From Sulfurovum sp. (GTDB lineage Bacteria; Campylobacterota; Campylobacteria; Campylobacterales; Sulfurovaceae), in contig JALUBF010000023.1 of assembly GCA_027045015.1 (NCBI GenBank), forward strand, positions 65,713 through 112,485: a stretch of DNA of 46,773 bases. Direction: 5' to 3'. Shown here piece by piece: positions 8,188-28,261 of this stretch. The position numbers and the translations under genes are program-made. Position 1 is the stretch's first letter. Each line of letters opens with the position of its first letter. The notes under the pieces were generated by a model. That model did no database searches. It was not told the DNA's origin and saw only the letters and a list, made by a program, of their open reading frames with translations.

Positions 8188-10824
8188 ATGAGCGAAACTG
8201 TAGAGAAAAAAACTGGTTACAACCCTAAAGAGGTAGAAGACAACTATTATAAAATATGTGAAGAGCGTGGATATTTTGAGATAGATGGAAATAAAAATAT
8301 ACAAGAAGATGGTAAAACATTTTCTATTATGATGCCTCCACCAAATGTTACAGGAAGCCTACATATTGGTCATGCCCTTACATTTACATTGCAAGATATC
8401 ATAACCCGTTATAAGCGTATGGACGGATTTAAAACACTTTGGCAACCAGGAACTGATCATGCAGGTATTGCTACTCAAAACATAGTAGAGAAGCAACTCT
8501 TGGCTGAGGGAACTACAAAAGAAGAGGTAGGACGCAAGAAGTTTTTAGAACGTGCATGGCTACAAAAAGAGACAAGTGGTGGAAACATAGTTCATCAGAT
8601 GCGTAAACTAGGTGTTACTCCTGCTTGGAAACGTGAGCGTTTTACTATGGATGAAGGTCTTAAAGAGGCTGTAAAAGAGGCTTTTGTATCGCTATACAAT
8701 GAGGGACAAATTACCCAAAATACCTATATGGTAAACTGGTGTACACATGATGGTGCATTGAGCGATATAGAGGTAGAGCATGAAGAGGTAAATGGTAAAT
8801 TTTACCATATGCTATACAAATTTGCAGATGGTAGTGGAGAGCTTGAAGTAGCAACAACTAGACCAGAAACATACTTTGGAGATACTGCTATAATGGTTCA
8901 CCCAGATGATGAGCGTTATAGAGATATAGTAGGTAAAGAGGTGCTTCTTCCACTTACCGATAGAACAATCAAAGTCATTACTGATGAGCATGTAGATATG
9001 GATTTTGGTACAGGTGTAGTAAAAGTCACACCTGCTCATGACCAAAATGACTACGCTGTAGGACAAAGACATAATCTTGAGCTGATAAAAGTATTTGATG
9101 AAAAAGGGATACTCAATGACTACTGTGGAGAGTTTGCAGGATTAGAGCGTCTTGAGGCACGTCCTATCATTGTCAAAGCACTTGAAAATGCTGGACATAT
9201 TGTAAAGATAGAAGATCACGTTCATCAAGTAGGACACTGTTACCGTTGTAAAAACATCGTAGAGCCGTTTATCTCTACACAATGGTTTTTAAGTGAAGAG
9301 ATTGCCCGAAACTCAATAAAAGAGACTAAAAAACACAACAACTTCCACCCTGCTCACTGGATAAACTCCTACACAGCATGGATGGACGAACTTAGACCTT
9401 GGTGTATCTCTCGTCAACTATGGTGGGGACATCGCATACCTGTATTTACTTGTGATGAGTGTAATCATCAATGGGCTGACAAAGCTGATGAGCCAGAAGC
9501 TTGTCCTAAATGTGGCTCTAAAAATATGACACAAGACCCTGATGTACTTGATACTTGGTTCTCATCTGCTTTATGGGCCATGTCTCCACTTGGCTGGGGA
9601 AACAATGGCAAGATGTCTCAAACATATAACGATACAGATATGCAAGATTTTTACCCCAACTCACTACTTATAACTGGATTTGACATTATGTTCTTCTGGG
9701 TAGCGCGTATGATGATGATGGGTGAACACTTTACTGGTAAACTACCATTTAAAGATATCTATATGCATGCTCTTGTACGTGATGAACATGGAGCTAAGAT
9801 GTCAAAATCCAAAGGTAATGTTATAGACCCTCTCAATATGGTAGAGGAGCATTCGGCTGATATTATCAGATTTACTTTAGCTTACCTTGCAGTACAAGGT
9901 CGTGATATTAAACTTGGAGCAAAGAACTTAGAGCAGTTTAGAAACTTTACAAATAAACTCTATAATGCAACAAATTATCTACAACTAAACCATACAACAT
10001 TTAAAGATTTGGCAGATATTGAGGTCGTTACACCACTTGGACGCTATATGCAAAGTCGTTTGGCAAAAGCAGTTGAAGATGTAAGAGAGAGTTTAGATAC
10101 ATACAACTTCTCTGATGGTGCTAAAGCACTCTATAACTTCGTCTGGAATGAGTTTTGTGACTGGGGTATTGAGTACTCAAAAGCTGACAAAGATAGTGTA
10201 GTAGAACTTGGAGCAATTTTTAAAGAGACACTCAAGATGGTCTCTCCATTTATGCCATTTATATCTGACTATCTTTATCATAAACTTAGTGGAACTACAC
10301 TTGAAAAAGGAGAGTCACTAATGGTAACAAACTTTCCTAAAAACATAACAAAAGATGAAGAAGCAGAAAATATGTTTGCCATCATTGAAGAGTCTATCAC
10401 ATCTTTACGTCGTGCAAAAGTAGTCATAGATATGGGTAATTCTAAGATAGACAAAGCATACATCAAATTAGATGATACCTCAAGTATAGATACAGAGATG
10501 GCAAAACCATTCATAGAAAAACTTGCAAAAGTAGTACAGATAGAGTTTGTAGATGCTAAAGTAGCAGATAGTATTACTGATGTATCAGATAACCTAGAGG
10601 TTTACCTACCAACTGGTGAGATAGATATGACCCCTATCATCACAAAGCTTACACGCCAAAAAGAGAAACTTGAAAAAGAGATAGCTAAACTAAATGGAAT
10701 GCTAAACAATGAAAGATTTGTAGCAAATGCTCCTGAAGCAATCATAGCTGAAAACAGACAAGCACTAGAAGATGCAAATAATAAAATAACAAAAGTCACA
10801 GCAGAACTAAATAACTTTATGTAG
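8188..10824 (+). CDS. valS: valyl-tRNA synthetase
   Basis: Class I aminoacyl-tRNA synthetase that charges tRNA-Val, 878 residues, normal for ValS. The HIGH signature is at residues 59-62 (PPPNVTGSLHIGHAL), the KMSKS loop at 537-541 and the editing-domain phrase TTRPETYFGDTA lies in between. A zinc-binding-like segment (CDECNHQW...CPKCGS) precedes the DPDVLDTWFSSALW strand. The last ~65 residues form the Lys/Glu-rich coiled coil (KLTRQKEKLEKEIAKLNGML) that is specific to ValS and contacts tRNA. It is transcribed alone, with its own TATAAT box and a hairpin over the stop codon. Confidence 0.98.
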   Translation: MSETVEKKTGYNPKEVEDNYYKICEERGYFEIDGNKNIQEDGKTFSIMMPPPNVTGSLHIGHALTFTLQDIITRYKRMDGFKTLWQPGTDHAGIATQNIVEKQLLAEGTTKEEVGRKKFLERAWLQKETSGGNIVHQMRKLGVTPAWKRERFTMDEGLKEAVKEAFVSLYNEGQITQNTYMVNWCTHDGALSDIEVEHEEVNGKFYHMLYKFADGSGELEVATTRPETYFGDTAIMVHPDDERYRDIVGKEVLLPLTDRTIKVITDEHVDMDFGTGVVKVTPAHDQNDYAVGQRHNLELIKVFDEKGILNDYCGEFAGLERLEARPIIVKALENAGHIVKIEDHVHQVGHCYRCKNIVEPFISTQWFLSEEIARNSIKETKKHNNFHPAHWINSYTAWMDELRPWCISRQLWWGHRIPVFTCDECNHQWADKADEPEACPKCGSKNMTQDPDVLDTWFSSALWAMSPLGWGNNGKMSQTYNDTDMQDFYPNSLLITGFDIMFFWVARMMMMGEHFTGKLPFKDIYMHALVRDEHGAKMSKSKGNVIDPLNMVEEHSADIIRFTLAYLAVQGRDIKLGAKNLEQFRNFTNKLYNATNYLQLNHTTFKDLADIEVVTPLGRYMQSRLAKAVEDVRESLDTYNFSDGAKALYNFVWNEFCDWGIEYSKADKDSVVELGAIFKETLKMVSPFMPFISDYLYHKLSGTTLEKGESLMVTNFPKNITKDEEAENMFAIIEESITSLRRAKVVIDMGNSKIDKAYIKLDDTSSIDTEMAKPFIEKLAKVVQIEFVDAKVADSITDVSDNLEVYLPTGEIDMTPIITKLTRQKEKLEKEIAKLNGMLNNERFVANAPEAIIAENRQALEDANNKITKVTAELNNFM

Positions 10825-15816: not shown

Positions 15817-16386
15817 TTAAAACTTTCTCAAATCTACAGCTAGATTATCTTCAAATTTACTAAATGCACGATTCATAGCATCTACTATATCTGTTATATC
15901 TTTTTTTGTAGCAACCTTTATTGAGAATAGATGAGATATTCGTTTTTTTGATTTTAGATTTTCTATACTATATGAAACATCTAAATATACATAATCTCCT
16001 TGAGCTATAAATCTACTAATATGTATAGATATCTTTATATTTGGCTGATTATCTATATCCCAAGGATACATATATATATCAGGGTTATTAAATTTTTTAC
16101 GTAGATAATTTATAACTCTATTGGTAAGCCCTACATCTAAATCTTCGCCCCATTTTGCCGAGGATAGTAATGTAATACTATTTGAAGAGTTGGCTATAGC
16201 TATCTCTCTTTTATATAAATAGGCAGGAACTGTTACATTCTCAATTCCTATAACTTTATTATTGATATGATACGTCATATTTGGCTGTGATGGTACAGAT
16301 AATATATAGTAGTTATTTGTACCACCAACACATCCAACCAATCCAAAAAGAGATACAAAAAGTAAAAAAATCTTTATAAACATCAT
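15817..16386 (-). CDS. pqiC: PqiC-like ABC-transport auxiliary lipoprotein
   Basis: PqiC (YmbA) is the lipoprotein partner of the PqiAB intermembrane transport system and sits in the outer membrane in E. coli. The 189-residue precursor has a signal peptide with a lipobox ending at Cys19 (GLVGCVGG). The family phrases YYILSVP, IGIENVTVPAYLYKREIAI and WGEDLDVGLTNRVINYL are present. The start (MM) overlaps the pqiB stop by one base, so translation is coupled. It is the last gene of the operon, ending close to tRNA-Arg. Confidence 0.88.
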   Translation of the reverse strand: MMFIKIFLLFVSLFGLVGCVGGTNNYYILSVPSQPNMTYHINNKVIGIENVTVPAYLYKREIAIANSSNSITLLSSAKWGEDLDVGLTNRVINYLRKKFNNPDIYMYPWDIDNQPNIKISIHISRFIAQGDYVYLDVSYSIENLKSKKRISHLFSIKVATKKDITDIVDAMNRAFSKFEDNLAVDLRKF

Positions 16387-18020
16387 TAATTATCTCCAAA
16401 TATAAGTGAATTAGGTTTTCTATTTAACATACGTAAAAATCTCTCCATCTCTTTAGATGTTTTAGTCAATACTCTTAATGTTTGAGAGAGTTGCTCTTTT
16501 ATAAGAGAGTTACTATCATACCCTTTTACAACTTTTTTTGTAGTCCTAAGAGTTCTTGTCATCTCACGCAGTGCTTTATTTAACTCATCTGGCACAACTT
16601 TAAATGATTTACGATTTGTCATTTTATTTATATTATCTACACTATGTTTTAAAGCAATTAAAAGAGTATCTGCATCTTTTACTGGTTTTTTACTATCATC
16701 AACTAAATTCTTGACAGAAGCTACCAACTTATTTAATGGTAGATTGTTTATCTTATTTAGTATCTGTTTTACTGAATCTACAATACCTAAAGAGCTTTTA
16801 GAAACTGTAGGTATATAATTGTATTTTCCTATTTTCACAATAGTAGCATTAGTATCATTATGCTCAAATATTAAATCTATATATTGGATATTACCTATAG
16901 GGCTAAGTCCTGATATTTTAGCTCTTAAACCATCTTCTACAGCTTTATAAAAATTCTCTTTTCCAGAGTTATTCATATCTTTAAATATAGTTAAATTTAT
17001 AGATATAAGTACATCTCCACTCATACTATGAGTAACTTTATCATATAACAACTTGATTTTTAATACTTTACCAATATCAAAACCATCAAATCGTACAACA
17101 GAACCATTACTTAATCCTGAGACAGATTTTTTAGTATGTATCATAAATTGTTTACCATTTTTATTAGCAAAATCTACAGTATGACTTTGTGCTAAAGTTT
17201 TATTTTTATATAAAGTAAATATATGTTTATTTGATAACTTTTTATCTTTATCTATAGATGATGATGAAAATACTATTCCACCTCTTATTAAGAAATTTAA
17301 TGGTGCAATATCAACATCTAACTTACCATGAGTAAAATCAACACTCATCATACTCTTTATCCAAAATTGTGTACTCTCTTGTATATAATCTGCATATTCA
17401 TTATTTATAAAGATAATGATATCTATATGTTTATTATCTAAAGAGAGATATTTATATGCTATTTTACCAACTTTTATATTTTTAAAATATACTGGCATAC
17501 CTATGGATATATTTTTACCATCTTCTGATCTTAGATGAAAAAATTTACCTTTACTTGTATCTTGATATGGTTGTTCATACCCTACATATTTACTCTTAAA
17601 ACTCTTACCACCAGACTTAGAATATACATTTATATATGTACCAGATATCAATGTATCAAGTCCTGATATACCACTAAATCCAACTTCTGGTTTGACTATC
17701 CAAAAACGTGCTTTTTCTGTAACATATGGGATAAACTCTTTTGAGTTTACTCTTACTTTTACAACAACATCATTTGACTTCTCATCTATATTTATCTTTG
17801 TTACTTTACCTACTGGTACATTTTTATATTTTAAAACACTCTGCCCAGCTACAAGTCCCTCATTTTTAGGAAAGACTATATCTATCTCTGGACCTAAGTT
17901 ATCAAAATATTGATAAGCAAGCCAACTAGCAATCGCCAATGCTATAAATGGTACTATCCAAATAGAGCTAAATATGTTGAACTTTGTCGTTTTCTCTATC
18001 TTTGGTCTATTTACTGACAT
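16386..18020 (-). CDS. pqiB: PqiB, MCE-domain intermembrane transport protein
   Basis: PqiB-type protein with one N-terminal transmembrane helix (IWIVPFIALAIASWLAYQYF, about residues 20-39) and three consecutive MCE/MlaD domains beginning near residues 45, 160 and 285. Each has the pattern GLVAGQSVLKYKNVPVGKV or a variant. In E. coli PqiB the MCE rings and a C-terminal helical needle form a hydrophobic tunnel across the periplasm for lipids. Here the last ~120 residues are also helical and charged (LREMTRTLRTTKKVVKGY). Length is 544, close to E. coli PqiB. It starts one base after the stop of the second PqiA gene. Confidence 0.94.
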   Translation of the reverse strand: MSVNRPKIEKTTKFNIFSSIWIVPFIALAIASWLAYQYFDNLGPEIDIVFPKNEGLVAGQSVLKYKNVPVGKVTKINIDEKSNDVVVKVRVNSKEFIPYVTEKARFWIVKPEVGFSGISGLDTLISGTYINVYSKSGGKSFKSKYVGYEQPYQDTSKGKFFHLRSEDGKNISIGMPVYFKNIKVGKIAYKYLSLDNKHIDIIIFINNEYADYIQESTQFWIKSMMSVDFTHGKLDVDIAPLNFLIRGGIVFSSSSIDKDKKLSNKHIFTLYKNKTLAQSHTVDFANKNGKQFMIHTKKSVSGLSNGSVVRFDGFDIGKVLKIKLLYDKVTHSMSGDVLISINLTIFKDMNNSGKENFYKAVEDGLRAKISGLSPIGNIQYIDLIFEHNDTNATIVKIGKYNYIPTVSKSSLGIVDSVKQILNKINNLPLNKLVASVKNLVDDSKKPVKDADTLLIALKHSVDNINKMTNRKSFKVVPDELNKALREMTRTLRTTKKVVKGYDSNSLIKEQLSQTLRVLTKTSKEMERFLRMLNRKPNSLIFGDN

Positions 18021-18632
18021 CTATTTACTATCCTTAATATTTTCTCTTATGAGTGTTTCATCAAAAGCATGTGCTGATAAAAGTGTAAAAAATACTGATA
18101 TAGCAAAAGCTGTAGCAGCTGTACCTGCAACAATAGATATGTTTGATAAATGTATTAATGCTGTTAAAATAGCTACAACAAAGACATCAATCATTGACCA
18201 CGGTCCTATAACTTCTGTAATATAATAGAGTTTATGCTTATCAACCTTTTTATCTTTTCCAAAAGGGTATTTTACACTAATTAAAAGATAAAACAAGATA
18301 AAAAACTTAAGAAGTGGTACTACTATAGATGCAAAAAATATTACCATAGCAATAGGATAAGAACCATTTTCCCATAAATGTACAACTCCACCTAGTATAG
18401 TACTACTTTGATGTGTTCCAAATTTATTGGTAATCAACATAGGATATAAATTTGCAGGGATATATGCGATAATAGCTGTTATAAGATATGCCCATGATTT
18501 TTCTGTTATAAAATTTTTATGCTGATATATAGCACTACCGCAACGACGACATATATTTTTATTGCCTCTATCAATATTTACGGCATTACATATAGGGCAA
18601 GGTATCAATCTATTCTCTTCTACATCTATCAA
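18021..18632 (-). CDS. pqiA: PqiA, C-terminal half as separate gene
   Basis: Integral membrane protein of 203 residues corresponding to one half of PqiA: a zinc-ribbon at the N-terminus (CPICN...CRRCG, about residues 12-32) and four hydrophobic segments, including YLITAIIAYIPANLYPMLI and VVPLLKFFILFYLLISV. The PqiA fold is usually two such halves in one chain of ~417 residues. The start is a TTG embedded in the TGA stop of the upstream half (TTGA), so the two are made in coupled fashion and probably assemble. PqiA is the inner-membrane component with PqiB and PqiC. Confidence 0.88.
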   Translation of the reverse strand: MIDVEENRLIPCPICNAVNIDRGNKNICRRCGSAIYQHKNFITEKSWAYLITAIIAYIPANLYPMLITNKFGTHQSSTILGGVVHLWENGSYPIAMVIFFASIVVPLLKFFILFYLLISVKYPFGKDKKVDKHKLYYITEVIGPWSMIDVFVVAILTALIHLSNISIVAGTAATAFAISVFFTLLSAHAFDETLIRENIKDSK

Positions 18633-19273
18633 TTTTTAGACCTCTTTAGAATCATATTTTCTCTAAGTATCCACAACTCAGATATTTTTACCTTTTTTAC
18701 TATATATATATCTATCAATACAAATATAATAAGTGCATAAAATGCCATTCCCATATCTATTTGAACATAGCCTATAAGTTTTACAAGTGCTACCAATATA
18801 GAAATAAGAAATATATCTGGCATACTCCAAGGTAAAATATGTGCCAATAGTACCAATAGAGTTTTAGTAAATTTCTTTGAACGCCTTAATTTTAAAAGTG
18901 TAAATAATATAATATCTATTATAAGAATCATAAGTGGAAATATAAAGATAAGAAACATACATAATATACCTACAATATAAAATCCACTATCTATAAGTGT
19001 AAATATAGTCTTAGAAATAGTTATAAATTGATCATGTCCCAATATCTCTATCTTAACTATCGGAAAAAAGTTTGCCAATATAAAAAATATAAGCCCTGAT
19101 ATACTTAAAGCCAAACTCTTATCGACAAGTTTAGTATCATATCTATACAACATAGCCCCACACTCGTTACAAGATGCCATATAACCATCTTTTATAGGTA
19201 TTATTTTATGTAAAGTGAAACATTTGTGACAGATAATATAATTATCTAAATCATCTTCATTTTTAATTTTCAT
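18629..19273 (-). CDS. pqiA: PqiA, N-terminal half as separate gene
   Basis: Second PqiA-family half, 214 residues from the ATG at 19273 (MKIKNEDDLDNY); an in-frame TTG at 19300 adds nine residues and has no better ribosome-binding site. A zinc-ribbon-like motif (CHKCF...CNECG) is followed by four membrane segments, e.g. LALSISGLIFFILANFFPIV. It overlaps the downstream half by four bases. A TATAAT on the minus strand lies only about seven bases before the ATG, so the transcript may be nearly leaderless. Together with the next three genes it forms a pqiA-pqiA-pqiB-pqiC lipid transport operon. Confidence 0.85.
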   Translation of the reverse strand: MKIKNEDDLDNYIICHKCFTLHKIIPIKDGYMASCNECGAMLYRYDTKLVDKSLALSISGLIFFILANFFPIVKIEILGHDQFITISKTIFTLIDSGFYIVGILCMFLIFIFPLMILIIDIILFTLLKLRRSKKFTKTLLVLLAHILPWSMPDIFLISILVALVKLIGYVQIDMGMAFYALIIFVLIDIYIVKKVKISELWILRENMILKRSKN

Positions 19274-19312
19274 AGCTATAATTATAACTAATTTATTCAA
19301 ATTGGGACTATA

Positions 19313-19993
19313 ATGAAGATATTAAGTATAAATCGTAACATTAAACACAATAAACTATCTATTGAAAATATAACTTTTAGCAAATTAGCAACTCTTTCAA
19401 ATATAGAAGATTATAGCTATATAATTATAAATGGTGGTGATGGGACTATTAGAAGAGTTATAAAAATATTACATAACATCAATAGCAATATTCCAATTAT
19501 TTTAAATCCTACTGGTTCATTTAATGTTATAGCTAAACTACACCATACACAATCACTCAAGACTATCTTAGAAAATCTTTCTAATGGTAAAACTATAAAA
19601 ACAAATATACAAAAATATTACTCCATAAATAATGATATATTTCTATTTTCAGCAGGAAATATGGGTGATTTACAACATATATTTTTATCTGAGACTCTAC
19701 GTTTTGGTCTGCTAAAAAATGGTATATCTAAATATATCTTAGCCCTACTCTTTCTTCTACCAATACACTTTATTATGACACCATTTATGCTTATGAGTTC
19801 TAAAAGATTTTTTATATTTACTCCTACATCTTACATCTCTAAGTTTGGTTCTTTTAGAGGTAAAATTACAAAAGAGTTTACTGTAGATTTAGAAAATGAT
19901 TATAATCTTATAGAGTTAGATGGAGATATAGTAACAATAAAAGAGAGTTCACTTACTATCCAACCTGCTGGTAATTTGAAAATAGTAATTTAA
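19313..19993 (+). CDS. diacylglycerol/lipid kinase family protein
   Basis: Member of the diacylglycerol kinase catalytic-domain family, 226 residues, shorter than the ~300 of typical DgkB/YegS proteins. The nucleotide-binding motif GGDGT is at residues 41-45 (IINGGDGTIRR). The following NPTGSFNVIAK replaces the usual GT(A/G)ND phrase, and SAGNMGDLQHIF is the third conserved block. A hydrophobic stretch (ISKYILALLFLLPIHFIM) may contact the membrane. The substrate lipid cannot be deduced. It is divergent from the pqi operon with only 39 bases between starts, and 62 bases upstream of the PqqD-like gene, so it may share its transcript. Confidence 0.8.
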   Translation: MKILSINRNIKHNKLSIENITFSKLATLSNIEDYSYIIINGGDGTIRRVIKILHNINSNIPIILNPTGSFNVIAKLHHTQSLKTILENLSNGKTIKTNIQKYYSINNDIFLFSAGNMGDLQHIFLSETLRFGLLKNGISKYILALLFLLPIHFIMTPFMLMSSKRFFIFTPTSYISKFGSFRGKITKEFTVDLENDYNLIELDGDIVTIKESSLTIQPAGNLKIVI

Positions 19994-20055: not shown

Positions 20056-20292
20056 ATGAGACCAATAGATCAACTTGTACTTGATGAAAATAATGTTGCA
20101 TTCAACCCAGTTGTAGGAAATAGTTATCAAGTAAATGATATTGCAAAAGAGATTCTTATAGCTATAAGACATCATAAAAGTAAAGAAGATATCATAAACG
20201 AGCTTACTGAAAAATATGATGTAAGTAAAGAAGAACTTTTTATTGATGTTAGCGATTTTATATCAAAAGTAAAAATCTACGGGTTACTCTAG
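20056..20292 (+). CDS. PqqD-like peptide-binding protein
   Basis: Protein of 78 residues in the PqqD family, whose members bind substrate peptides for radical-SAM and other RiPP enzymes. It shows the family layout: a short beta-hairpin (LVLDENNVAFNPVVGNSYQV), then VNDIAKEILIAIRHH, the SKEDIINELTEKYDVSKEEL helices and a terminal FISKVKIYGLL. The ATG at 20056 is chosen because AGGAG stands 7 bases upstream; the longer reading from a TTG at 20032 lacks a site. A single base separates it from the ATP-grasp gene. No precursor peptide gene is visible nearby. Confidence 0.78.
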   Translation: MRPIDQLVLDENNVAFNPVVGNSYQVNDIAKEILIAIRHHKSKEDIINELTEKYDVSKEELFIDVSDFISKVKIYGLL

Positions 20293-20293
20293 T

Positions 20294-21313
20294 ATGAATA
20301 TTGCTATTAGTGGACTTAACAATACAGACAATCCAGCTCCAGGGATCCCCGTTATTAAAAGCTTACAAGATGAACATACGCTTATTGGTCTCTCTTATGA
20401 TGCAAATGAACCTGGTAACTTTATGGGACTTTGCGAAAAAACATACTTGATGCCATACCCATCACTTGGTATTCAAGAGTTAAAAGATAGACTTATAGAT
20501 ATTAAAGAGAAATCTAATATAGATGCCATTATTCCAAATCTTGATGCAGAACTACCTCTTTACATAAAATATCAAGAAGAGTTAGAAAATGAACTTGACA
20601 TCTCTCTTTGTCTTCCATCTTTAGAAAATTTTGAACTAAGAAATAAAAATAAACTTGATACACTTTCAAAAACACTCAATATAAATCACCCAAAAACATT
20701 TGAAATATCAAGTATTGATGAGTTAATGGAGTGTAGTAAAGATTTAGGATTTCCTTTAATGGTTAAAGGGAATTACTATAAAGCATATATGTCATACAAT
20801 CTTGATAGTGCTATTGATAATTTCTATAAAATATCTAATGAATGGGGATTTCCTGTACTAGTTCAAGAGGTTGTTTCTGGTGAAGAGCTAAACCTTATAG
20901 GTGTCGCTGATGGAAAAGGTGAACTTAAAGGTGCTGTTGCCATAAAAAAACTTACTACTACTGATATTGGTAAGATATGGACAGGAGTTACTATACAGAA
21001 TGATAAGCTAATGAATATAGCAAAAGATTTTGTATCTAACACAAAATGGAAAGGACCATTTGAGCTTGAGTGTATTATGTCTGCGAATGGTGATATTTAT
21101 CTTATTGAGATAAATCCACGCTTCCCTGCATGGGTCTATTTTGCTACAGAGATTGGCATAAACCTACCTAAAATTGTAGTAGATATAATGCAAGGGATTG
21201 ATACACCTGCACAACTTGAATATCCTCAAAACAAGCTATATGTTCGGTACACTGGTGAACTAGTTACCGACTTTACAGATCTTATAAAATTACTATCAAC
21301 AAAGGAACTTTAA
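20294..21313 (+). CDS. ATP-grasp ligase (CarB-like)
   Basis: ATP-grasp enzyme of 339 residues, related in layout to the carbamoyl-phosphate-synthase large-chain-like group that activates a carboxylate with ATP and couples it to an amine. The pre-ATP-grasp domain spans about 1-110; the ATP-binding part includes LGFPLMVKGNYYKAY and FPVLVQEVVSGEEL. Near the C-terminus GPFELECIM and YLIEINPRFPAW supply the metal-binding Glu and Asn. Substrates are not evident. One-base gaps to the PqqD-like gene before it and the decarboxylase after it imply joint translation and one pathway. Confidence 0.85.
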   Translation: MNIAISGLNNTDNPAPGIPVIKSLQDEHTLIGLSYDANEPGNFMGLCEKTYLMPYPSLGIQELKDRLIDIKEKSNIDAIIPNLDAELPLYIKYQEELENELDISLCLPSLENFELRNKNKLDTLSKTLNINHPKTFEISSIDELMECSKDLGFPLMVKGNYYKAYMSYNLDSAIDNFYKISNEWGFPVLVQEVVSGEELNLIGVADGKGELKGAVAIKKLTTTDIGKIWTGVTIQNDKLMNIAKDFVSNTKWKGPFELECIMSANGDIYLIEINPRFPAWVYFATEIGINLPKIVVDIMQGIDTPAQLEYPQNKLYVRYTGELVTDFTDLIKLLSTKEL

Positions 21314-21314
21314 A

Positions 21315-22643
21315 ATGAGCAAACAAACCTATCTTAAACCAACAATAAACAAAGTTGAATTTGCAATGGCATCTAAATATGGAAGTCCTCTCAAAACACA
21401 AAAAATACGTTCAGAAATAGATGGTGTAAAAGTTTCTGACCTAGTTGAGCAGTATGGAAGTCCTCTATTTGTATTTTCTCAGACTAAAATAGAAGAGCTT
21501 TACCATAACCTATACAATGCATTTAGCTCAAGATATCCAGATGTACAATTTGGTTGGAGCTATAAAACAAACTATCTTAATGAAATTTGTAAAGTATTTC
21601 ATAATCTTGGCTCTATTGCAGAAGTAGTAAGTGAATTTGAATACCAAAAAGCAAGAGCATTAGGTATAGAAGGTAAAGATATTATATTTAATGGACCATA
21701 TAAACCATATAAAGATTTAAAAATTGCTGTTCAAGAGGGAGCAAAAATTCATGTAGATAATCTTTTTGAATTAAATGATCTTGAAAAAATTGCTGATGAA
21801 CTTGGTACAAAAATAAAAGTAGCTATTAGAGTCAATATGGATACAGGCATATATCCTCAATGGTCACGTTTTGGATTTAACTTTGAAAATGAAGAGGCTT
21901 ATGAAGCAGTAAAACGTATGTATGATGGTGGAAAACTTGAACTTAATGGTATCCATTCTCACATTGGTACTTTTATGCTTGATGCAAATGCATACAAAAT
22001 GGCTACTATAAAAATTATGCAACTTAAAGAACGTGTTGAAAATGATTTTGGATCTATTATTGATTATATTGACCTTGGTGGTGGATTTGCTAGTAAATCA
22101 CATCTTAAAGGAGTATATCAATCACCAGATGTAACTATTCCTACAGCTGATGATTATGCTGAGGCTATAACAAATGCTATCTATGAGATGAATAAAAGTG
22201 ATAAATTACCAAAACTATATCTTGAAACTGGTAGAGCCTTGATTGACGAAGCAGGTTATTTACTAACATCTGTACATGGATATAAAAGATTTCCTGATGG
22301 GAAAAAAGGATACATTCTTAATGCTGGAGTAAATCTACTATATACCTCAACATGGTATAACTTCAATATTGAACTAGATAAAAGATATGATGGAGAAAAT
22401 GAACCATCTATGCTCAATGGACCTTTATGTATGAATATTGATATTATTGAAGAAAATATTATGTTACCTGCACTAGATAGAGGAACTATTTTAACTCTCT
22501 CTCCAGTAGGTGCTTATAACTATACACAAGCTATGCAGTTTATTAGATATAGACCAGCAGCTGTCCTTATAGATAAAGAGGGTAAATCAAGAGTTATTAA
22601 AGAGATTGATGATCTTGATACGGTTAACTATAAAGAGGTATAA
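21315..22643 (+). CDS. fold-type III PLP decarboxylase (LysA/SpeC-like), substrate unknown
   Basis: Orn/DAP/Arg decarboxylase family 2 protein of 442 residues. Lys84 (FGWSYKTNY) binds PLP; GIHSHIGTF, DLGGGF and LETGRAL line the cofactor pocket, and Cys372 is the second-subunit Cys. In diaminopimelate decarboxylase that Cys begins a CES/CxxxD-type motif. Here it reads CMNID, so the usual acidic neighbour is missing and the substrate is probably not meso-DAP. A ~40-residue N-terminal extension precedes the barrel, with a YGSPL phrase repeated at residues 22-26 and 47-51. It begins one base after the ATP-grasp gene, with AAAGGA upstream, and the transporter-peptidase follows 10 bases later. Confidence 0.85.
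   Translation: MSKQTYLKPTINKVEFAMASKYGSPLKTQKIRSEIDGVKVSDLVEQYGSPLFVFSQTKIEELYHNLYNAFSSRYPDVQFGWSYKTNYLNEICKVFHNLGSIAEVVSEFEYQKARALGIEGKDIIFNGPYKPYKDLKIAVQEGAKIHVDNLFELNDLEKIADELGTKIKVAIRVNMDTGIYPQWSRFGFNFENEEAYEAVKRMYDGGKLELNGIHSHIGTFMLDANAYKMATIKIMQLKERVENDFGSIIDYIDLGGGFASKSHLKGVYQSPDVTIPTADDYAEAITNAIYEMNKSDKLPKLYLETGRALIDEAGYLLTSVHGYKRFPDGKKGYILNAGVNLLYTSTWYNFNIELDKRYDGENEPSMLNGPLCMNIDIIEENIMLPALDRGTILTLSPVGAYNYTQAMQFIRYRPAAVLIDKEGKSRVIKEIDDLDTVNYKEV
21378..21466 (+). repeat. 14-base direct repeat in the 5' end of the decarboxylase gene
   Basis: TATGGAAGTCCTCT occurs at 21378-21391 and 21453-21466, 75 bases apart and in the same reading frame, encoding YGSPL each time. The second copy belongs to the conserved family motif; the first lies in the N-terminal extension. 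Confidence 0.8.
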
Positions 22644-22653
22644 AATAGTTATT

Positions 22654-24717
22654 ATGAATAATATAAAAACGATTTTTTTTAGTGCTATAAAACCATATTC
22701 AGCACTGTTATTTCTTGATAACAAAATTGTTGGTATTTTATTATTGCTAATTACATTTATAAATCCATCTGTTGCATTAAGTGGTCTTGCAGCAGTGGGT
22801 TTCACTATTTTATTTGCTGAATTTATACAATTTAAAGAGTCTTATCTTGCACAGGGGTTTTATATATATAATTCCCTACTTGTTGGTATGGGAATTGGAT
22901 ACATATTTACACCTTCGTTTATTAGTATATTACTAATTGGTATTTTATCCTCATTTACATTTATGCTATCATTTATGTTCAATCGTCTTTTTAGTGTCTA
23001 TAAAATACCTATATTGTCTCTACCTTTTTCAATTGTAACAATATTTGCATATCTAGCTTCCCTTCAATACTCAGGGCTTCTTTCTACGCTTATAAATAAT
23101 GCTACAATGTATGATATATCATTACCACTAATCATTAGTGGTTTTTTTAAATCTCTTGGAGAGATATTTTTTCTACCAAACAATATTGCAGGAATTGCCA
23201 TTGCACTATTGATATTGTATTTTTCTAGAATTATATTTATAATGGCTCTTATAGGATTCTACTTTGGTGTTGCAGTTCATAGCCTCTTAATAGACTCATA
23301 TTTTCAAGCACTACGTGACCCTTACGCATTTAACTACATACTTGTTTCTATTGCACTTTGTGGTATATTTCTACTTCCTACTATAAAAAACTTTTTTATA
23401 GCACTCATAGCTATAGCTATAAGCGTTGTATTGACAGATGCTATTGTTATGTTCTTTAACTATTTTAGCATACCTGTTTTTACCCTTCCATTCAATATTA
23501 CTGTTATCTCTTTTATTTTTATTCTTTCCATAATCTACTACAAAGAGTTTAATATAGAGATAAAATCTACGCCAGAAGAGTCTTTATCAAATTACCTTAG
23601 TAAGATATTTCGTTTTGGAGAGATACCAACAAAAATTGCATTACCTTATTCTGGTACATGGTCTGTATATCAAGCTTTTAATGGAGAATGGACGCATAAA
23701 GGTGAGTATAGATATGCTTATGATTTTGTAAAAAGATATCCTGATGGTAAAACATATAATTCAGATGGTAAAGCATTAGAGAATTATGGAGCTTTTGGAG
23801 AGTCTGTTATAGCACCAGTTAGTGGATATATTATCAGTACTCGAAGTGACCTTAAAGATAACTATATTGGTGAAGTTGATCATATAAATAACTGGGGAAA
23901 TTATATTATCATAAAAAGTGATTTAGGATTTTATGTAGAGATTAGCCACTTAATGCAATACTCATGTATATATAAGATAGGTGATTATATACAAGAAGGT
24001 AATGTTATTGCTAAATGTGGTAATTCAGGTTACTCTCCAGAGCCTCATATTCATATTCAAGTACAATATACAGGCTATATTGGTGGGTTTACACAAAACT
24101 TTCTATTTAGTGAATATATTCTTGAAGATAAACTATATTATAACCAAACTCCTGCTCTAAAAGAAAATGTAACAGCAATTATTATAAATAAAAATATAGC
24201 ATCAAGATTTCTTTTTATTCTTGATGATAAATTTATATATAAGCTTTATGAAGATGGTAAGTATAAAGAAGAGGTAACATTCACGGTAACCATGGATGAA
24301 GCAGGTAAATTTTATCTGACTGACGAAGCAAAAAATAGACTATATTTTTACAATACCCTAAAAGAGTTCTATTTTTATCAATATAATGGGACAAATAGCT
24401 ATCTAAAAACTCTATTTATGCTTGCACCACGTATTCCATTTATATCATCACAAGAAGTTATCTATGAGGATTATCTTCCTACAAATATAACTAAAACACC
24501 TTTTAAAAAGACTCTCATAGAACTATATGCTACAATAAATAAAAAAATTTACAAAGAAACTTCTATATATAGGTTTAATAAAGATAAAATAATATCAAAA
24601 TATGGAGAAGCTACCATTTGTACGAAACATAAAGGATTTGCATCTATTTCTTTTAATAATATTGAGCTTAAATTATCTTTAGAGGACAATACACCAAGGA
24701 GGGATAATTCTAATTAA
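22654..24717 (+). CDS. urea-transporter-like membrane domain fused to M23 peptidase
   Basis: Two-domain protein of 687 residues. Residues 1 to ~295 form a polytopic domain with about ten hydrophobic segments and the urea-transporter-like phrases GFYIYNSLLVGMGIGY and YAFNYILVSIALCGIF. The second part is an M23 (LytM-type) metallopeptidase: His348 and Asp357 in the HKGEYRYAYDF motif, and His465/His467 in PHIHIQVQ, so the zinc ligands are complete. A beta-rich tail follows to residue 687. In M23 proteins the domain acts in the periplasm on peptidoglycan cross-links. The ATG at 22654 is chosen since upstream in-frame starts overlap the decarboxylase. It shares the transcript with the enzymes before it. 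Confidence 0.85.
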   Translation: MNNIKTIFFSAIKPYSALLFLDNKIVGILLLLITFINPSVALSGLAAVGFTILFAEFIQFKESYLAQGFYIYNSLLVGMGIGYIFTPSFISILLIGILSSFTFMLSFMFNRLFSVYKIPILSLPFSIVTIFAYLASLQYSGLLSTLINNATMYDISLPLIISGFFKSLGEIFFLPNNIAGIAIALLILYFSRIIFIMALIGFYFGVAVHSLLIDSYFQALRDPYAFNYILVSIALCGIFLLPTIKNFFIALIAIAISVVLTDAIVMFFNYFSIPVFTLPFNITVISFIFILSIIYYKEFNIEIKSTPEESLSNYLSKIFRFGEIPTKIALPYSGTWSVYQAFNGEWTHKGEYRYAYDFVKRYPDGKTYNSDGKALENYGAFGESVIAPVSGYIISTRSDLKDNYIGEVDHINNWGNYIIIKSDLGFYVEISHLMQYSCIYKIGDYIQEGNVIAKCGNSGYSPEPHIHIQVQYTGYIGGFTQNFLFSEYILEDKLYYNQTPALKENVTAIIINKNIASRFLFILDDKFIYKLYEDGKYKEEVTFTVTMDEAGKFYLTDEAKNRLYFYNTLKEFYFYQYNGTNSYLKTLFMLAPRIPFISSQEVIYEDYLPTNITKTPFKKTLIELYATINKKIYKETSIYRFNKDKIISKYGEATICTKHKGFASISFNNIELKLSLEDNTPRRDNSN

Positions 24718-24801
24718 TAATAATTATGATAAGATTTTATGTTTTGTATATAAAGTATGTATACATTTAACCATTCATTAATAAAAGGACAAAGAAAAAA
24801 T

Positions 24802-25698
24802 ATGAAAAAATTAATTTTAAGTATGATTGCAATTTCAGCACTTGCATCTGCAGATGTGAAAACAGTACTACCTTATTATGGTACAATTAATTATGATAAT
24901 TCATCAAACAAATCACTAAAAGATAGCTCAAAGTTTGGTGGATTTTACACAAGTATAGGTAATCTTGGATATCTATTTGAATTGGGATATAACTATCTTG
25001 ATACAAAATATAAAGATCCTAAGATATCAAATCTAAAACAACATGACCTTACAATGATGTATAGTAAATACTATCCTACATATATGATAAAAAGTGGTTT
25101 TCACTATATTAACAATAATGAAAAAACTGCCTTTAGAGATTTAGGAAATGGTATAGTTGGTATTTTAGGTGTTTCTAGATATACATTTAAACCAAAAAGT
25201 AAAACAACATATGGATTGGATCTATACTACTCTCACTATGGTAGTGCGCATAACGATAGAACTCTTGCTGAGATTAAAACTATAAATATAGCACAATTTA
25301 CACCATATTTAACATATGGAGAGACTATATCTTCATCAATGAGCAATGTATTTACATTTAAAACAAACTTCATATATTCTCATTCATATAAAGATACTTC
25401 TTATGTCTCATATGAATTTTCTGATACACTTATAGAAAATAAAGCTTATCTTACTCTTAGTTATCTTGGTGGTGATTTCAGAAGTGGTGTAAAAGATAAT
25501 GGTTTCTCTGTGTACAATACTAAAGATCTTTATAGTCGCTCATATCAAGCAAAATTAGGTTATCATTTCTCTAAAAAACTTGATGCTAGTATTGATTATA
25601 CTTCAAATTTCTATAAAGAGTATGATGCTAAAACTCTTAAACTTATGCCAAGAGGACGTAACAATATAATATCTGCTTCAATGAGTTATACTTTCTAA
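24802..25698 (+). CDS. outer-membrane beta-barrel-like protein
   Basis: Protein of 298 residues with a signal peptide (MKKLILSMIAISALASA, cleavage about residue 18) and a mature part of alternating strands such as GYLFELGYNYLDTKY, TTYGLDLYYSHYG, KAYLTLSYLGG and YQAKLGYHFSKKLDASIDY. It ends IISASMSYTF with the barrel-terminal Phe. I do not recognise a family; a YaiO-like barrel is possible. The ATG at 24802 fits the signal peptide better than the in-frame ATG at 24757, and AAAGGA lies about 12 bases upstream. An 84-base gap from the transporter-peptidase includes a 10-base palindrome (ATGTATACAT at 24757-24766), leaving room for its own promoter. Confidence 0.75.
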   Translation: MKKLILSMIAISALASADVKTVLPYYGTINYDNSSNKSLKDSSKFGGFYTSIGNLGYLFELGYNYLDTKYKDPKISNLKQHDLTMMYSKYYPTYMIKSGFHYINNNEKTAFRDLGNGIVGILGVSRYTFKPKSKTTYGLDLYYSHYGSAHNDRTLAEIKTINIAQFTPYLTYGETISSSMSNVFTFKTNFIYSHSYKDTSYVSYEFSDTLIENKAYLTLSYLGGDFRSGVKDNGFSVYNTKDLYSRSYQAKLGYHFSKKLDASIDYTSNFYKEYDAKTLKLMPRGRNNIISASMSYTF

Positions 25699-25699
25699 T

Positions 25700-26335
25700 A
25701 TGAAAAGATTTATATCTCTATGTCTAGCTACAACTATTTGGCTTGTAGCTAGTCAAACATCAAAAGATAATGAGATTCAAAAAGATTATTATCAATCTTA
25801 TAACTATGAACAAATTGGTAACTATGATGAAGCTATAAAAGTACTTGTACCACTTTATAATCAATATAAAAATGGATATACACTTAACTTACGTTTAGGT
25901 TGGCTATTTTTTAAAAGTAAAAGATATAAAGATAGTTTAGATTATTACCAAAAGGCTTCTATAATATCTCCAAATTCTATTGCTCCTCGTTTAGGCATAA
26001 TACGTATTTATCTTAAGACACAATCATACAAAAAAGTTGAGAGCGCATCACAACAGTTACTAAAGATAGACTACTATAATTACTATGCAAATTTATATAT
26101 TGTAAAAGCACTTATAGCCCAGAAAAAATATGATACTGCACTATTTGTTGTTAGAAAAATGTTAGTTTTATACCCTACATCAGTTAGATACCTTGAAGAG
26201 TTAGCAAAAATTTATAAAGCAACTAGTAATAAAAATTTATATCAAATTTATAAAGATATATTAATACTTGATCCAAACAATATTACAGTTTCCAATATGA
26301 AAAAACAATCTAATGTTCAAAATCTTAATCTTTGA
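25700..26335 (+). CDS. TPR-repeat protein, exported
   Basis: Protein of 211 residues with a probable signal peptide (MKRFISLCLATTIWLVASQTS) and four to five tetratricopeptide repeats, e.g. NYEQIGNYDEAIKVLVPLYN, LRLGWLFFKSKRYKDSLDYY and IVKALIAQKKYDTALFVVRK. TPRs mediate protein-protein contacts; with an outer-membrane barrel immediately upstream (one base apart) it may form a periplasmic part of an export complex, as in polysaccharide exporters where TPR domains sit on the barrel. That pairing is inference. It overlaps the next gene by 23 bases in another frame. Confidence 0.82.
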   Translation: MKRFISLCLATTIWLVASQTSKDNEIQKDYYQSYNYEQIGNYDEAIKVLVPLYNQYKNGYTLNLRLGWLFFKSKRYKDSLDYYQKASIISPNSIAPRLGIIRIYLKTQSYKKVESASQQLLKIDYYNYYANLYIVKALIAQKKYDTALFVVRKMLVLYPTSVRYLEELAKIYKATSNKNLYQIYKDILILDPNNITVSNMKKQSNVQNLNL

Positions 26336-26927
26336 AAGTACTCTTTCATATTATGTAAAAACACACTTTTCAATCTATGAGATTGATTTTGTGTGGACAG
26401 AAGAAGATATACTCTCTAAAACATTTGAAAAAAAATATGATTTATATATCATACATTTTAGTGCGCTAAATATTGTAGAGTCACTTAGAAATTCTGGTGA
26501 TATGACACCTATTATATTTATTGATGAGTATTATCTACTTGAACATATGAAGTTAGCTTTTCTCTATGGAGATGACTATCTTATTAAACCTCTTTATATT
26601 GAAGATATTTCTATACGAATAGATTATCATTATAGAAAAATATATAATCATAAAAATAATATTCTTATATATAAAGATTTCTATTTTCATATAAATAGCC
26701 GTCAACTTTTTAAAGATACTCAAAAAATAAAACTATCTCCAAATGAGTTGAAATTATCAGAATTATTACTACATTATAAAGAGAAACCACTAAATAAAGA
26801 GTTGATATATGATACACTAGAGAGTAGAAGTGAAGGCTCATTACGTGTTTATATCTCAAAACTAAATAAACTAGGATTTAATATAAAATATAATAGAGCC
26901 ATCTCAAGCTATATACTTATACCTTAA
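26313..26927 (+). CDS. OmpR-type regulator with degenerate receiver domain
   Basis: Regulator of 204 residues. The N-terminal ~105 residues resemble a receiver domain but the phospho-acceptor position carries His48 (YDLYIIHFSAL) where Asp is expected, and the acidic pair reads ES (residues 8-9). The conserved Lys92 (YLIKPL) is kept. The C-terminal ~80 residues are an OmpR-type winged helix (KLSPNELKLSELLLHY...SEGSLRVYISKLNKLGF), so it binds DNA. No histidine kinase is near. Phosphorylation in the classical way is therefore unlikely; it may be an atypical response regulator controlled otherwise. It overlaps the TPR gene by 23 bases and has no promoter of its own. Confidence 0.8.
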   Translation: MFKILIFESTLSYYVKTHFSIYEIDFVWTEEDILSKTFEKKYDLYIIHFSALNIVESLRNSGDMTPIIFIDEYYLLEHMKLAFLYGDDYLIKPLYIEDISIRIDYHYRKIYNHKNNILIYKDFYFHINSRQLFKDTQKIKLSPNELKLSELLLHYKEKPLNKELIYDTLESRSEGSLRVYISKLNKLGFNIKYNRAISSYILIP

Positions 26928-26968: not shown

Positions 26969-28261
26969 ATGAATAATAGAACTATTAGTTTAATAGGCGC
27001 TATATCTATTGGTATTGGTGGTATGGTAGGTGGTGGTATATTTGCTGTACTTGGAGAGGCTGTATCGTTAGCTCATGGAGCAACTTTTGTGGCATTTTTT
27101 ACAGCAGGGTTAGTAGCTATTTTAACATCTTACTCCTATGCAAAATTATCTGTACACTATCAAAATCGTGGAGGAACTGTTGTATTTATAGATAATGCTT
27201 TTAAGAAAAATCTATTTTCAGGTAGTGTCAATTTGATGTTATGGCTAAGCTATTTAGTTACTATATCTCTATATGCTACAGCATTTGCTTCTTATGGAGG
27301 AACTTTTTTCCAACATTCAACAACCCCTTATATTAAACAAGGTCTCATCTTTATAGCTATCTTTCTACCAACTTTTATAAATCTAGTTAATGCTTCTTTT
27401 GTAAGTAAATCTGAATCTATTATTGTTTTTATAAAGATAACACTCCTTATACTAATTATAGTATCTGGAGCAAACTATATTGATATCCAACGTCTATCTC
27501 CTACACATTGGGAAGCACCTTTAGGCATAGTAACAGCAGGTATGATTATATTTGTAGCATATGAAGGATTTGAACTCATAGCCAATTCAGCCGAAGATAT
27601 CAAAAATCCTACAGTAAATCTACCTCGTGCTTTTTATGGTTCAGTTATTTTTGTTATTTTACTATATGTACTTATCTCCATAGTTACTGTTGGAGTTGTA
27701 CCCGAATCTCAACTTTTAGAGGCAAAAGATTATGCTTTAGCTATAGCAGCTAAACCTGCTTTAGGAGAAGTTGGATTTACTATTGTAGCTATTGCTGCAT
27801 TACTTTCTACATTTTCAGCCATCAATGCAACTATCTATGGAAATGCACGTTTAGGATTTTTTCTTGCCAATGAAGGAGAACTTCCAAAAATATTGGGTCA
27901 AGAGAAGAAAAATATACCTACGCTTGGAGTGTGGGTTACATCTATATTAAGTTTCTTTTTAGCTATCAGTATATCTTTAACAGAAATCGCCATTATAGCA
28001 AGTGCAGGTTTTTTACTTATCTTTGCTATTGTAAATATCTCAGCATTTAAATTGGCAAAAGAGATAAATGCAAATAGAATAATAACTCTTTTTGCTATTT
28101 TATGTTCTGTCTTGGCATTAACAACACTACTATTTCATACTTATACTAGTAACCCTAAAGCTGTTGTTATTTTTATCATATTTATGACTTTTTCTCTATT
28201 ATTTGAGTTAATATATGGCAGATTTGTTAGAGGTCATTTTTTAAATAGAAAATATTTATAA
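26969..28261 (+). CDS. APC superfamily amino-acid permease
   Basis: Permease of 430 residues with about 12 transmembrane segments. The conserved APC motif is present at the start (SIGIGGMVGGGIFAVLGEAV) and the substrate-binding helix reads AGMIIFVAYEGFELIANSAED. The exact amino acid is not evident. It has its own TATAAT promoter directly downstream of the regulator gene. Its stop overlaps the end of the convergent HAD gene by six bases. A functional link to the unusual cluster upstream, for example supply of an amino acid substrate, is possible but not shown. Confidence 0.88.
   Translation: MNNRTISLIGAISIGIGGMVGGGIFAVLGEAVSLAHGATFVAFFTAGLVAILTSYSYAKLSVHYQNRGGTVVFIDNAFKKNLFSGSVNLMLWLSYLVTISLYATAFASYGGTFFQHSTTPYIKQGLIFIAIFLPTFINLVNASFVSKSESIIVFIKITLLILIIVSGANYIDIQRLSPTHWEAPLGIVTAGMIIFVAYEGFELIANSAEDIKNPTVNLPRAFYGSVIFVILLYVLISIVTVGVVPESQLLEAKDYALAIAAKPALGEVGFTIVAIAALLSTFSAINATIYGNARLGFFLANEGELPKILGQEKKNIPTLGVWVTSILSFFLAISISLTEIAIIASAGFLLIFAIVNISAFKLAKEINANRIITLFAILCSVLALTTLLFHTYTSNPKAVVIFIIFMTFSLLFELIYGRFVRGHFLNRKYL

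Follow-up and report, generated by a model that had tools for sequence, protein, structure and literature searches.

The window analysed here, a stretch of 46,773 nucleotides from a Sulfurovum sp. contig (JALUBF010000023.1), carries between positions 20056 and 26927 seven consecutive plus-strand genes, hereafter the cassette, which are almost certainly one functional, mobile unit. The four core genes encode a PqqD-like protein of the RiPP recognition element (RRE) type (RiPP: ribosomally synthesized and post-translationally modified peptide), an ATP-grasp ligase, a pyridoxal-phosphate (PLP) decarboxylase and a fusion of a urea transporter (UT)-fold channel to an M23 peptidase domain; a probable outer-membrane barrel, a TPR protein and a regulator complete the set. 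A sequence-only reading of this DNA had proposed a candidate undescribed system; a conserved and apparently undescribed system is indeed what it is, given its presence in 19 of 397 genomes, the shared history of its genes and the lack of a match in the gene-family libraries and open literature covered. Re-derivation from the window sequence agreed exactly with that reading on the seven genes, their ends, the intergenic gaps (1, 1, 10, 84 and 1 bases) and the 23-base overlap at the last gene pair, and Pfam agreed with the PqqD, ATP-grasp, decarboxylase, UT plus M23 fusion and TPR domains that it had named. The features are as follows.

20056..20292, plus strand: PqqD-like RRE protein, 78 aa (Pfam PqqD and TbiB1 matches)
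20294..21313, plus strand: ATP-grasp carboxylate-amine ligase, CarB/PylC-like, 339 aa (Pfam, NCBIfam and PDB matches)
21315..22643, plus strand: alanine-racemase-fold PLP decarboxylase, 442 aa, nearest to the N-citrylornithine decarboxylase FslC/FigC (Pfam, PDB 7kh2)
21330..21347, plus strand: codons of YLKPTI, decarboxylase residues 6-11, the YxKPxI tail (resembles the YxxP(xL) RRE recognition sequence)
22654..24717, plus strand: UT-M23 fusion, 687 aa, a urea-transporter-fold channel with a zinc peptidase domain and a C-terminal extension (Pfam)
24802..25698, plus strand: probable beta-barrel of the outer membrane, 298 aa, with signal peptide and C-terminal aromatic residue (alignment of 27 homologs)
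25700..26335, plus strand: secreted TPR protein, 211 aa (TPR families)
26313..26927, plus strand: OmpR-like regulator with a degenerate receiver domain, 204 aa (OmpR-type models)

The cross-genome comparison covered 397 Campylobacterota genomes and other phyla in part. In profile searches, the PqqD-like, ATP-grasp, decarboxylase and UT-M23 genes share the same 19 genomes in a fixed order, spread over 10 of 68 genera and four families, a co-occurrence far above chance. Identical sets of 19 genomes came from the profiles for ATP-grasp, UT-M23 and decarboxylase, and the PqqD profile added a single genome (G447) with a 30-residue relic, so that none of the 397 holds one core gene without the rest except for this truncated copy. 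The relic (locus L079, 10111-10284, minus strand) retains the first 30 PqqD-like residues; the flanking sequence, about 10 kb each way, is free of further cassette genes, and the relic is an apparent scar of cassette loss. The UT-M23 fusion was found in 13 of 150 family genomes besides the window, and in all 13 the four genes follow one another in the window's order on one strand; three weaker family matches covered the M23 domain only. In two cassettes (genomes G362 and G201, loci L057 and L065) the decarboxylase and UT-M23 genes are both interrupted while the ATP-grasp gene is intact, and unless these are assembly errors, the genes appear to decay together. The spacing of the core genes is mostly -4 to +20 bases across cassettes. 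The cassette usually also includes a TPR protein, a barrel and a degenerate response regulator, in varying order: 3′ of the core, the two main arrangements are barrel-TPR-regulator, in the genus of the window, and TPR-regulator-barrel, in other families, and some genomes have the barrel upstream, or in duplicate on the opposite strand. Flanking genes vary by genome. The sequence-only reading had suggested a search for conserved co-occurrence in other genomes; this search was decisively positive, and rather than being scattered in relatives the four core genes keep together and share one history.

Of all the evidence, this shared history speaks most strongly for a joint function of the genes. 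Pairwise protein distances among the 19 genomes correlate at r 0.85-0.89 between the four core proteins but only at 0.43-0.56 between the core and tgt or valS, which correlate at 0.88 with each other, and therefore the cassette moves as a unit. The tested cassette proteins of G433, a genome from another family, have their closest counterparts in the window's genus, which does not hold for its tgt and valS, a discord that points to horizontal transfer as a unit. As a separate observation, the valS of the window (8188-10824) groups with that of G433 and not with that of the genus mate G024, hinting at a transfer of valS.

A single-protein scan of genome contigs returned two loci only, in Sulfurovum and in Helicobacteraceae. 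Plasmid records gave no DNA match; for the ATP-grasp, decarboxylase and UT-M23 proteins they contained distant members of the superfamilies but no orthologs, and viral contigs gave distant ATP-grasps only. Several candidates were discarded: a Streptomyces locus with a distant ATP-grasp holds no cassette, the related decarboxylases on Rahnella and Tritonibacter plasmids lie in carrier-protein loci and that on a Salmonella plasmid in an amino-acid-metabolism locus, and a reverse-frame ORF of 1450 aa across one cassette copy (L028) was dismissed as an open antisense frame. None of the seven window proteins reached an equivalog cut-off in NCBIfam and none matched a PADLOC model, on which ground an anti-phage defence system was rejected. 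Scans for promoters and terminators gave counts at chance level.

RREs are docking sites for RiPP precursor peptides. The PqqD-like protein matches Pfam PqqD at 4.8e-11, its nearest solved structure is TbiB1, a lasso B1 RRE (5.3e-7), and its orthologs sit 5′ of the ATP-grasp gene in every cassette. The decarboxylase opens with a tail of about 30 residues that precedes the catalytic domain and falls outside the alignments to PDB decarboxylases; the peptide MSKQTYLKPTINKVEF of this tail includes Y6 and P9. Residues Y6, K8, P9 and I11 are invariant in 24 of 24 aligned orthologs, even where the remaining tail has diverged, whereas the genome's own diaminopimelate decarboxylase (DAPDC) has no YxKPxI tail. 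As for plasmid-borne relatives of the decarboxylase, the alignments among the matches listed begin at residue 7 at the least and mostly at 25-43, thus barely reaching the tail. The recognition sequence characterised for lasso peptides is YxxP, that common to PqqD- and FusE-type RREs is W/Y/LxxP/L/I (PMC12710340), and the lasso leader motif has been given as YxxPxL/V (PMC6856326); the YxKPxI of the decarboxylase fits all three. In stretches of about 7-20 kb around the cassette copies there is no precursor-like small ORF with an RRE motif, the decarboxylase being the sole motif-bearing protein. A short motif alone is weak evidence, and what strength it has here comes from its invariance and the neighbouring RRE. 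With YxKPxI in every copy and no precursor ORF found, the PqqD-like protein more likely binds the decarboxylase tail than a peptide product, so that the peptide-binding fold of the sequence-only reading stands as a fold and its presumed client probably does not. We would put the chances that the RRE's client is the decarboxylase, docked through its N-terminal YxKPxI tail, at about even.

Of the two enzymes, the ATP-grasp protein matches Pfam ATPgrasp_Ter (1.1e-9), the NCBIfam PRK12767 group (2.4e-24) and, in the PDB, 2pn1 and PylC (4ffl); its start, SGLNxTDNPxPG, is conserved, and E257, E259, E272, N274 and R276 are invariant. The decarboxylase matches the Pfam Orn/DAP/Arg decarboxylase families at 2.9e-31 and 7.9e-11, and its best solved relative is the N-citrylornithine decarboxylase 7kh2 (1.1e-66), ahead of DAPDC (7e-57). 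It scores 225.8 bits against NF041039 (FslC; cut-off 500 bits) and 223.6 bits against TIGR01048 (LysA; cut-off 297.9 bits), and K84, C372 and M373 are invariant. Since the genome has a separate DAPDC of 408 residues with the motif CESGD, the cassette enzyme is not the lysine enzyme. In FigC, M355 takes the place of the acidic residue after the catalytic cysteine, the specificity helix projects T327, T330 and Y331, and H357, R387 and N389 likely serve the citryl group (PMC7857480). The cassette decarboxylase likewise has a Met, not an acidic residue, after the catalytic Cys, and in a profile alignment its M373, T344 and Y348 correspond to FigC M355, T327 and Y331, W347 lies at the position of T330, and the citrate contacts H357, R387 and N389 are replaced by I375, Q405 and M407, all seven residues being invariant or nearly so among orthologs. 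The FigC-like pocket and the lost citrate contacts point to an enzyme that, like FigC, accepts a large side chain that bears no free amine and, unlike FigC, does not bind citrate; its substrate would therefore be a large, N-acylated and non-citryl one.

The UT domain of the fusion protein is unmistakable (Pfam UT 6.1e-61, 206.6 bits against a cut-off of 25), the M23 domain matches at 3.1e-10, and orthologs of 43-76% identity keep the two domains fused. An alignment with dvUT spans the whole UT domain, with the PxLS/T-PF repeats and the pore phenylalanines kept; in the alignment to 3k3f, Ala17 and a variable residue 170 (E/T/A) occupy the positions of dvUT Gln24 and Glu187, which we take, numbering and roles included, to be the urea-coordinating residues of the pore mouth. 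On this assumption a cargo other than urea is likely. Known UTs have both termini in the cytoplasm, and here the loops richest in lysine and arginine flank the UT domain at both ends. If the family topology holds, the positive-inside rule thus suggests that both termini of the fusion are cytoplasmic and that the M23 domain lies inside the cell. The M23 zinc and catalytic residues (H348, D357, H432, H465 and H467) are invariant in 24 sequences. On plasmids, the proteins nearest to this M23 domain are from Thermus and haloarchaea, and a haloarchaeal M23 peptidase near nitrile hydratase genes (L108, 3698-4624) is among the closest. Haloarchaea have no murein, and this M23 subgroup may therefore not be a wall hydrolase. 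The "cell-wall peptidase" of the sequence-only reading is thus borne out as an M23 domain with intact metal residues, while its wall role is unsafe given the lysine-rich UT flanks and the haloarchaeal relatives.

The product of 24802-25698 is probably an outer-membrane beta-barrel, as had been proposed, judging from its signal peptide, beta-rich sequence and C-terminal aromatic residue; the qualification is kept because the window protein has no Pfam or PDB match, and two of 27 relatives match OMP_b-brl weakly (best 5.5e-4). At two loci (L027, 6146-8088; L029, 7096-8969) there are two adjoining divergent barrel copies each, on the opposite strand and about 26-30% identical to the window barrel, which possibly represent a diversification of the outer-membrane component. 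The TPR protein matches TPR families in Pfam to 3.5e-10, and its gene adjoins the UT-M23 or barrel gene in most cassettes. The regulator matches OmpR-type response-regulator models to 1e-11, and its winged-helix domain stays under the Pfam cut-off (19.5 against 26.2 bits). The phospho-acceptor position holds a His in the window; of 12 cassette copies, 10 have H, S or N there instead of Asp, so that the regulator is probably independent of phosphorylation. The earlier call of a DNA-binding regulator thus agrees with the OmpR-type match, for a member that is variable and in most copies without the phospho-acceptor Asp.

From these parts we infer a chemistry, a docking and an export that would make the block a mobile cassette for biosynthesis and export acting as one unit. 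The PqqD-like RRE would grip the N-terminal YxKPxI tail of the decarboxylase, thereby assembling a cytoplasmic enzyme complex, its client being an enzyme and not a RiPP precursor. The ATP-grasp ligase would couple a carboxylate, probably from an amino acid, to a diamino acid such as lysine, ornithine or diaminopimelate (DAP) at its side-chain amine, as PylC does on lysine, and the FigC-like decarboxylase would then strip the free alpha-carboxylate from the resulting large N-acylated amino acid to give an N-acyl-diamine, a pseudo-dipeptide, in the same order as in Francisella rhizoferrin synthesis and with a non-citryl acyl group. The product would cross the inner membrane through the UT-fold channel, with the attached M23 domain trimming or gating, and leave through the barrel with the aid of the periplasmic TPR protein, and the degenerate regulator would control the operon without phosphorylation. 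The more general idea, of an RRE re-used outside RiPPs, where a leader-like enzyme tail builds an enzyme complex feeding a peptidase-fused UT channel, and hence of natural-product or signalling cassettes of a new class that spread horizontally as units, seems to us somewhat short of an even chance. The full sequence of ligation, decarboxylation of an N-acyl diamino acid and export by the UT channel is, taken as a whole, a touch more tentative still.

Several points weigh against this scheme. Known UT proteins conduct urea-sized solutes, and the pore may be too narrow for an N-acyl-diamine; the lasso-leader models of NCBIfam and Pfam gave no match to the tail, with a single weak match to a tryglysin RiPP (E 0.017); AlphaFold models of UT-M23 and the decarboxylase, from shallow alignments, reached a pLDDT of 34-37 and lend no support to the topology or to the disorder of the tail; and the order of the enzymes could be reversed, with decarboxylation preceding ligation. 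This last order is that of a polyamine or amino-acid amide cassette, in which the decarboxylase would make an amine from a free amino acid and the ATP-grasp ligase would conjugate it, like the tyramine-glutamate ligase MfnD, with the UT-like channel releasing a small uncharged amide. It uses the same two chemistries, its product would suit the UT pore better, and an amino-acid permease gene (26969-28261) follows the block. However, acidic residues for free diamines are missing from the active site, whose pocket residues resemble those of FigC, and the permease is unmatched beside the family's cassettes; we consider this order unlikely.

Processing of peptidoglycan peptides is an equally improbable alternative. 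The decarboxylase would act on the free D-centre of meso-DAP in a muropeptide, turning DAP into lysine within the peptide, while the ATP-grasp ligase re-ligates amino acids, M23 cuts wall peptides, the UT-like channel or the barrel moves the pieces and the regulator reports on the wall. The D-centre is indeed where DAP decarboxylases act, and in wall peptides it is free; the Arg that in DAPDC binds the L-centre carboxylate is absent, as expected if that centre is amidated; the M23 zinc ligands are intact and the cassette includes envelope proteins. The positive-inside reading of the UT flanks puts M23 in the cytoplasm, however, the closest plasmid M23 relatives are those of Thermus and the murein-less haloarchaea, and the RRE would be left without a role. 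The third alternative is a RiPP pathway with the precursor encoded elsewhere: the RRE would bind its leader, the ATP-grasp enzyme add a residue, the decarboxylase remove a carboxylate, M23 cut the leader and the UT channel and barrel export the product. A PqqD-like RRE beside enzymes, a regulator and transport genes is indeed typical of RiPP clusters (PMC7470986). Against it, the motif resides on the decarboxylase and on no precursor-like ORF near the copies, and Pfam and NCBIfam detect no radical SAM, cyclase, LanB/C or YcaO protein among the seven, which makes this the least probable of the three.

Just before the cassette, on the minus strand (15817-19300), lies a PqiA-PqiA-MCE(PqiB-like)-lipoprotein set, as judged from sequence, which looks like an intermembrane lipid transport operon. 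Directly upstream, on the plus strand (19313-19993), is a gene for a diacylglycerol-kinase-like protein of 226 aa, which matched lipid-kinase models of about 295-335 positions. Neither this gene nor the downstream permease has a match in the family's other cassette loci, and for this reason both were left out of the cassette.

In the open literature we found no description that combines the cassette parts. We regard the cassette as a new system built from known domain families; copies or descriptions of it may exist elsewhere. Its proposed chemistry most resembles that of FslA/FigA and FslC/FigC in Francisella rhizoferrin synthesis, where a carboxylate is ligated to a diamino acid and the product is decarboxylated by an alanine-racemase-fold PLP enzyme, 7kh2 being the nearest solved relative of the cassette decarboxylase. 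However, the cassette ligase is an ATP-grasp enzyme and not an NRPS-independent siderophore (NIS) synthetase, the citrate-contact residues are lost, and an RRE and a UT-M23 fusion are present without a major facilitator superfamily (MFS) exporter. With PylC and MfnD-type ligases the ATP-grasp protein shares the superfamily of amino acid-to-amine ligation, the PylC match being weak, and it is close to neither. The likeness to lasso B1 and PqqD RREs lies in the fold, nearest to TbiB1, and in a YxxPxI-type recognition sequence within the operon, whereas in the cassette the motif is on an enzyme, and no precursor, B2 protease, asparagine-synthetase-like cyclase or PqqA/B/C/E was found. If the docking is real, a partner motif on an enzyme would show how the RRE module operates, or came about, beyond peptide natural products, and enzyme-docked RREs could explain the precursor-less RRE genes met in genome mining. 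Finally, the cassette protein has the full-length UT domain and both PxLxxPF-type repeats of urea channels such as dvUT and UT-B, but it is fused to a peptidase and no urease accompanies it in the cassette. UT-fold channels here gain a new architecture, probably with a new cargo, and an undescribed metabolite is predicted in Campylobacterota.

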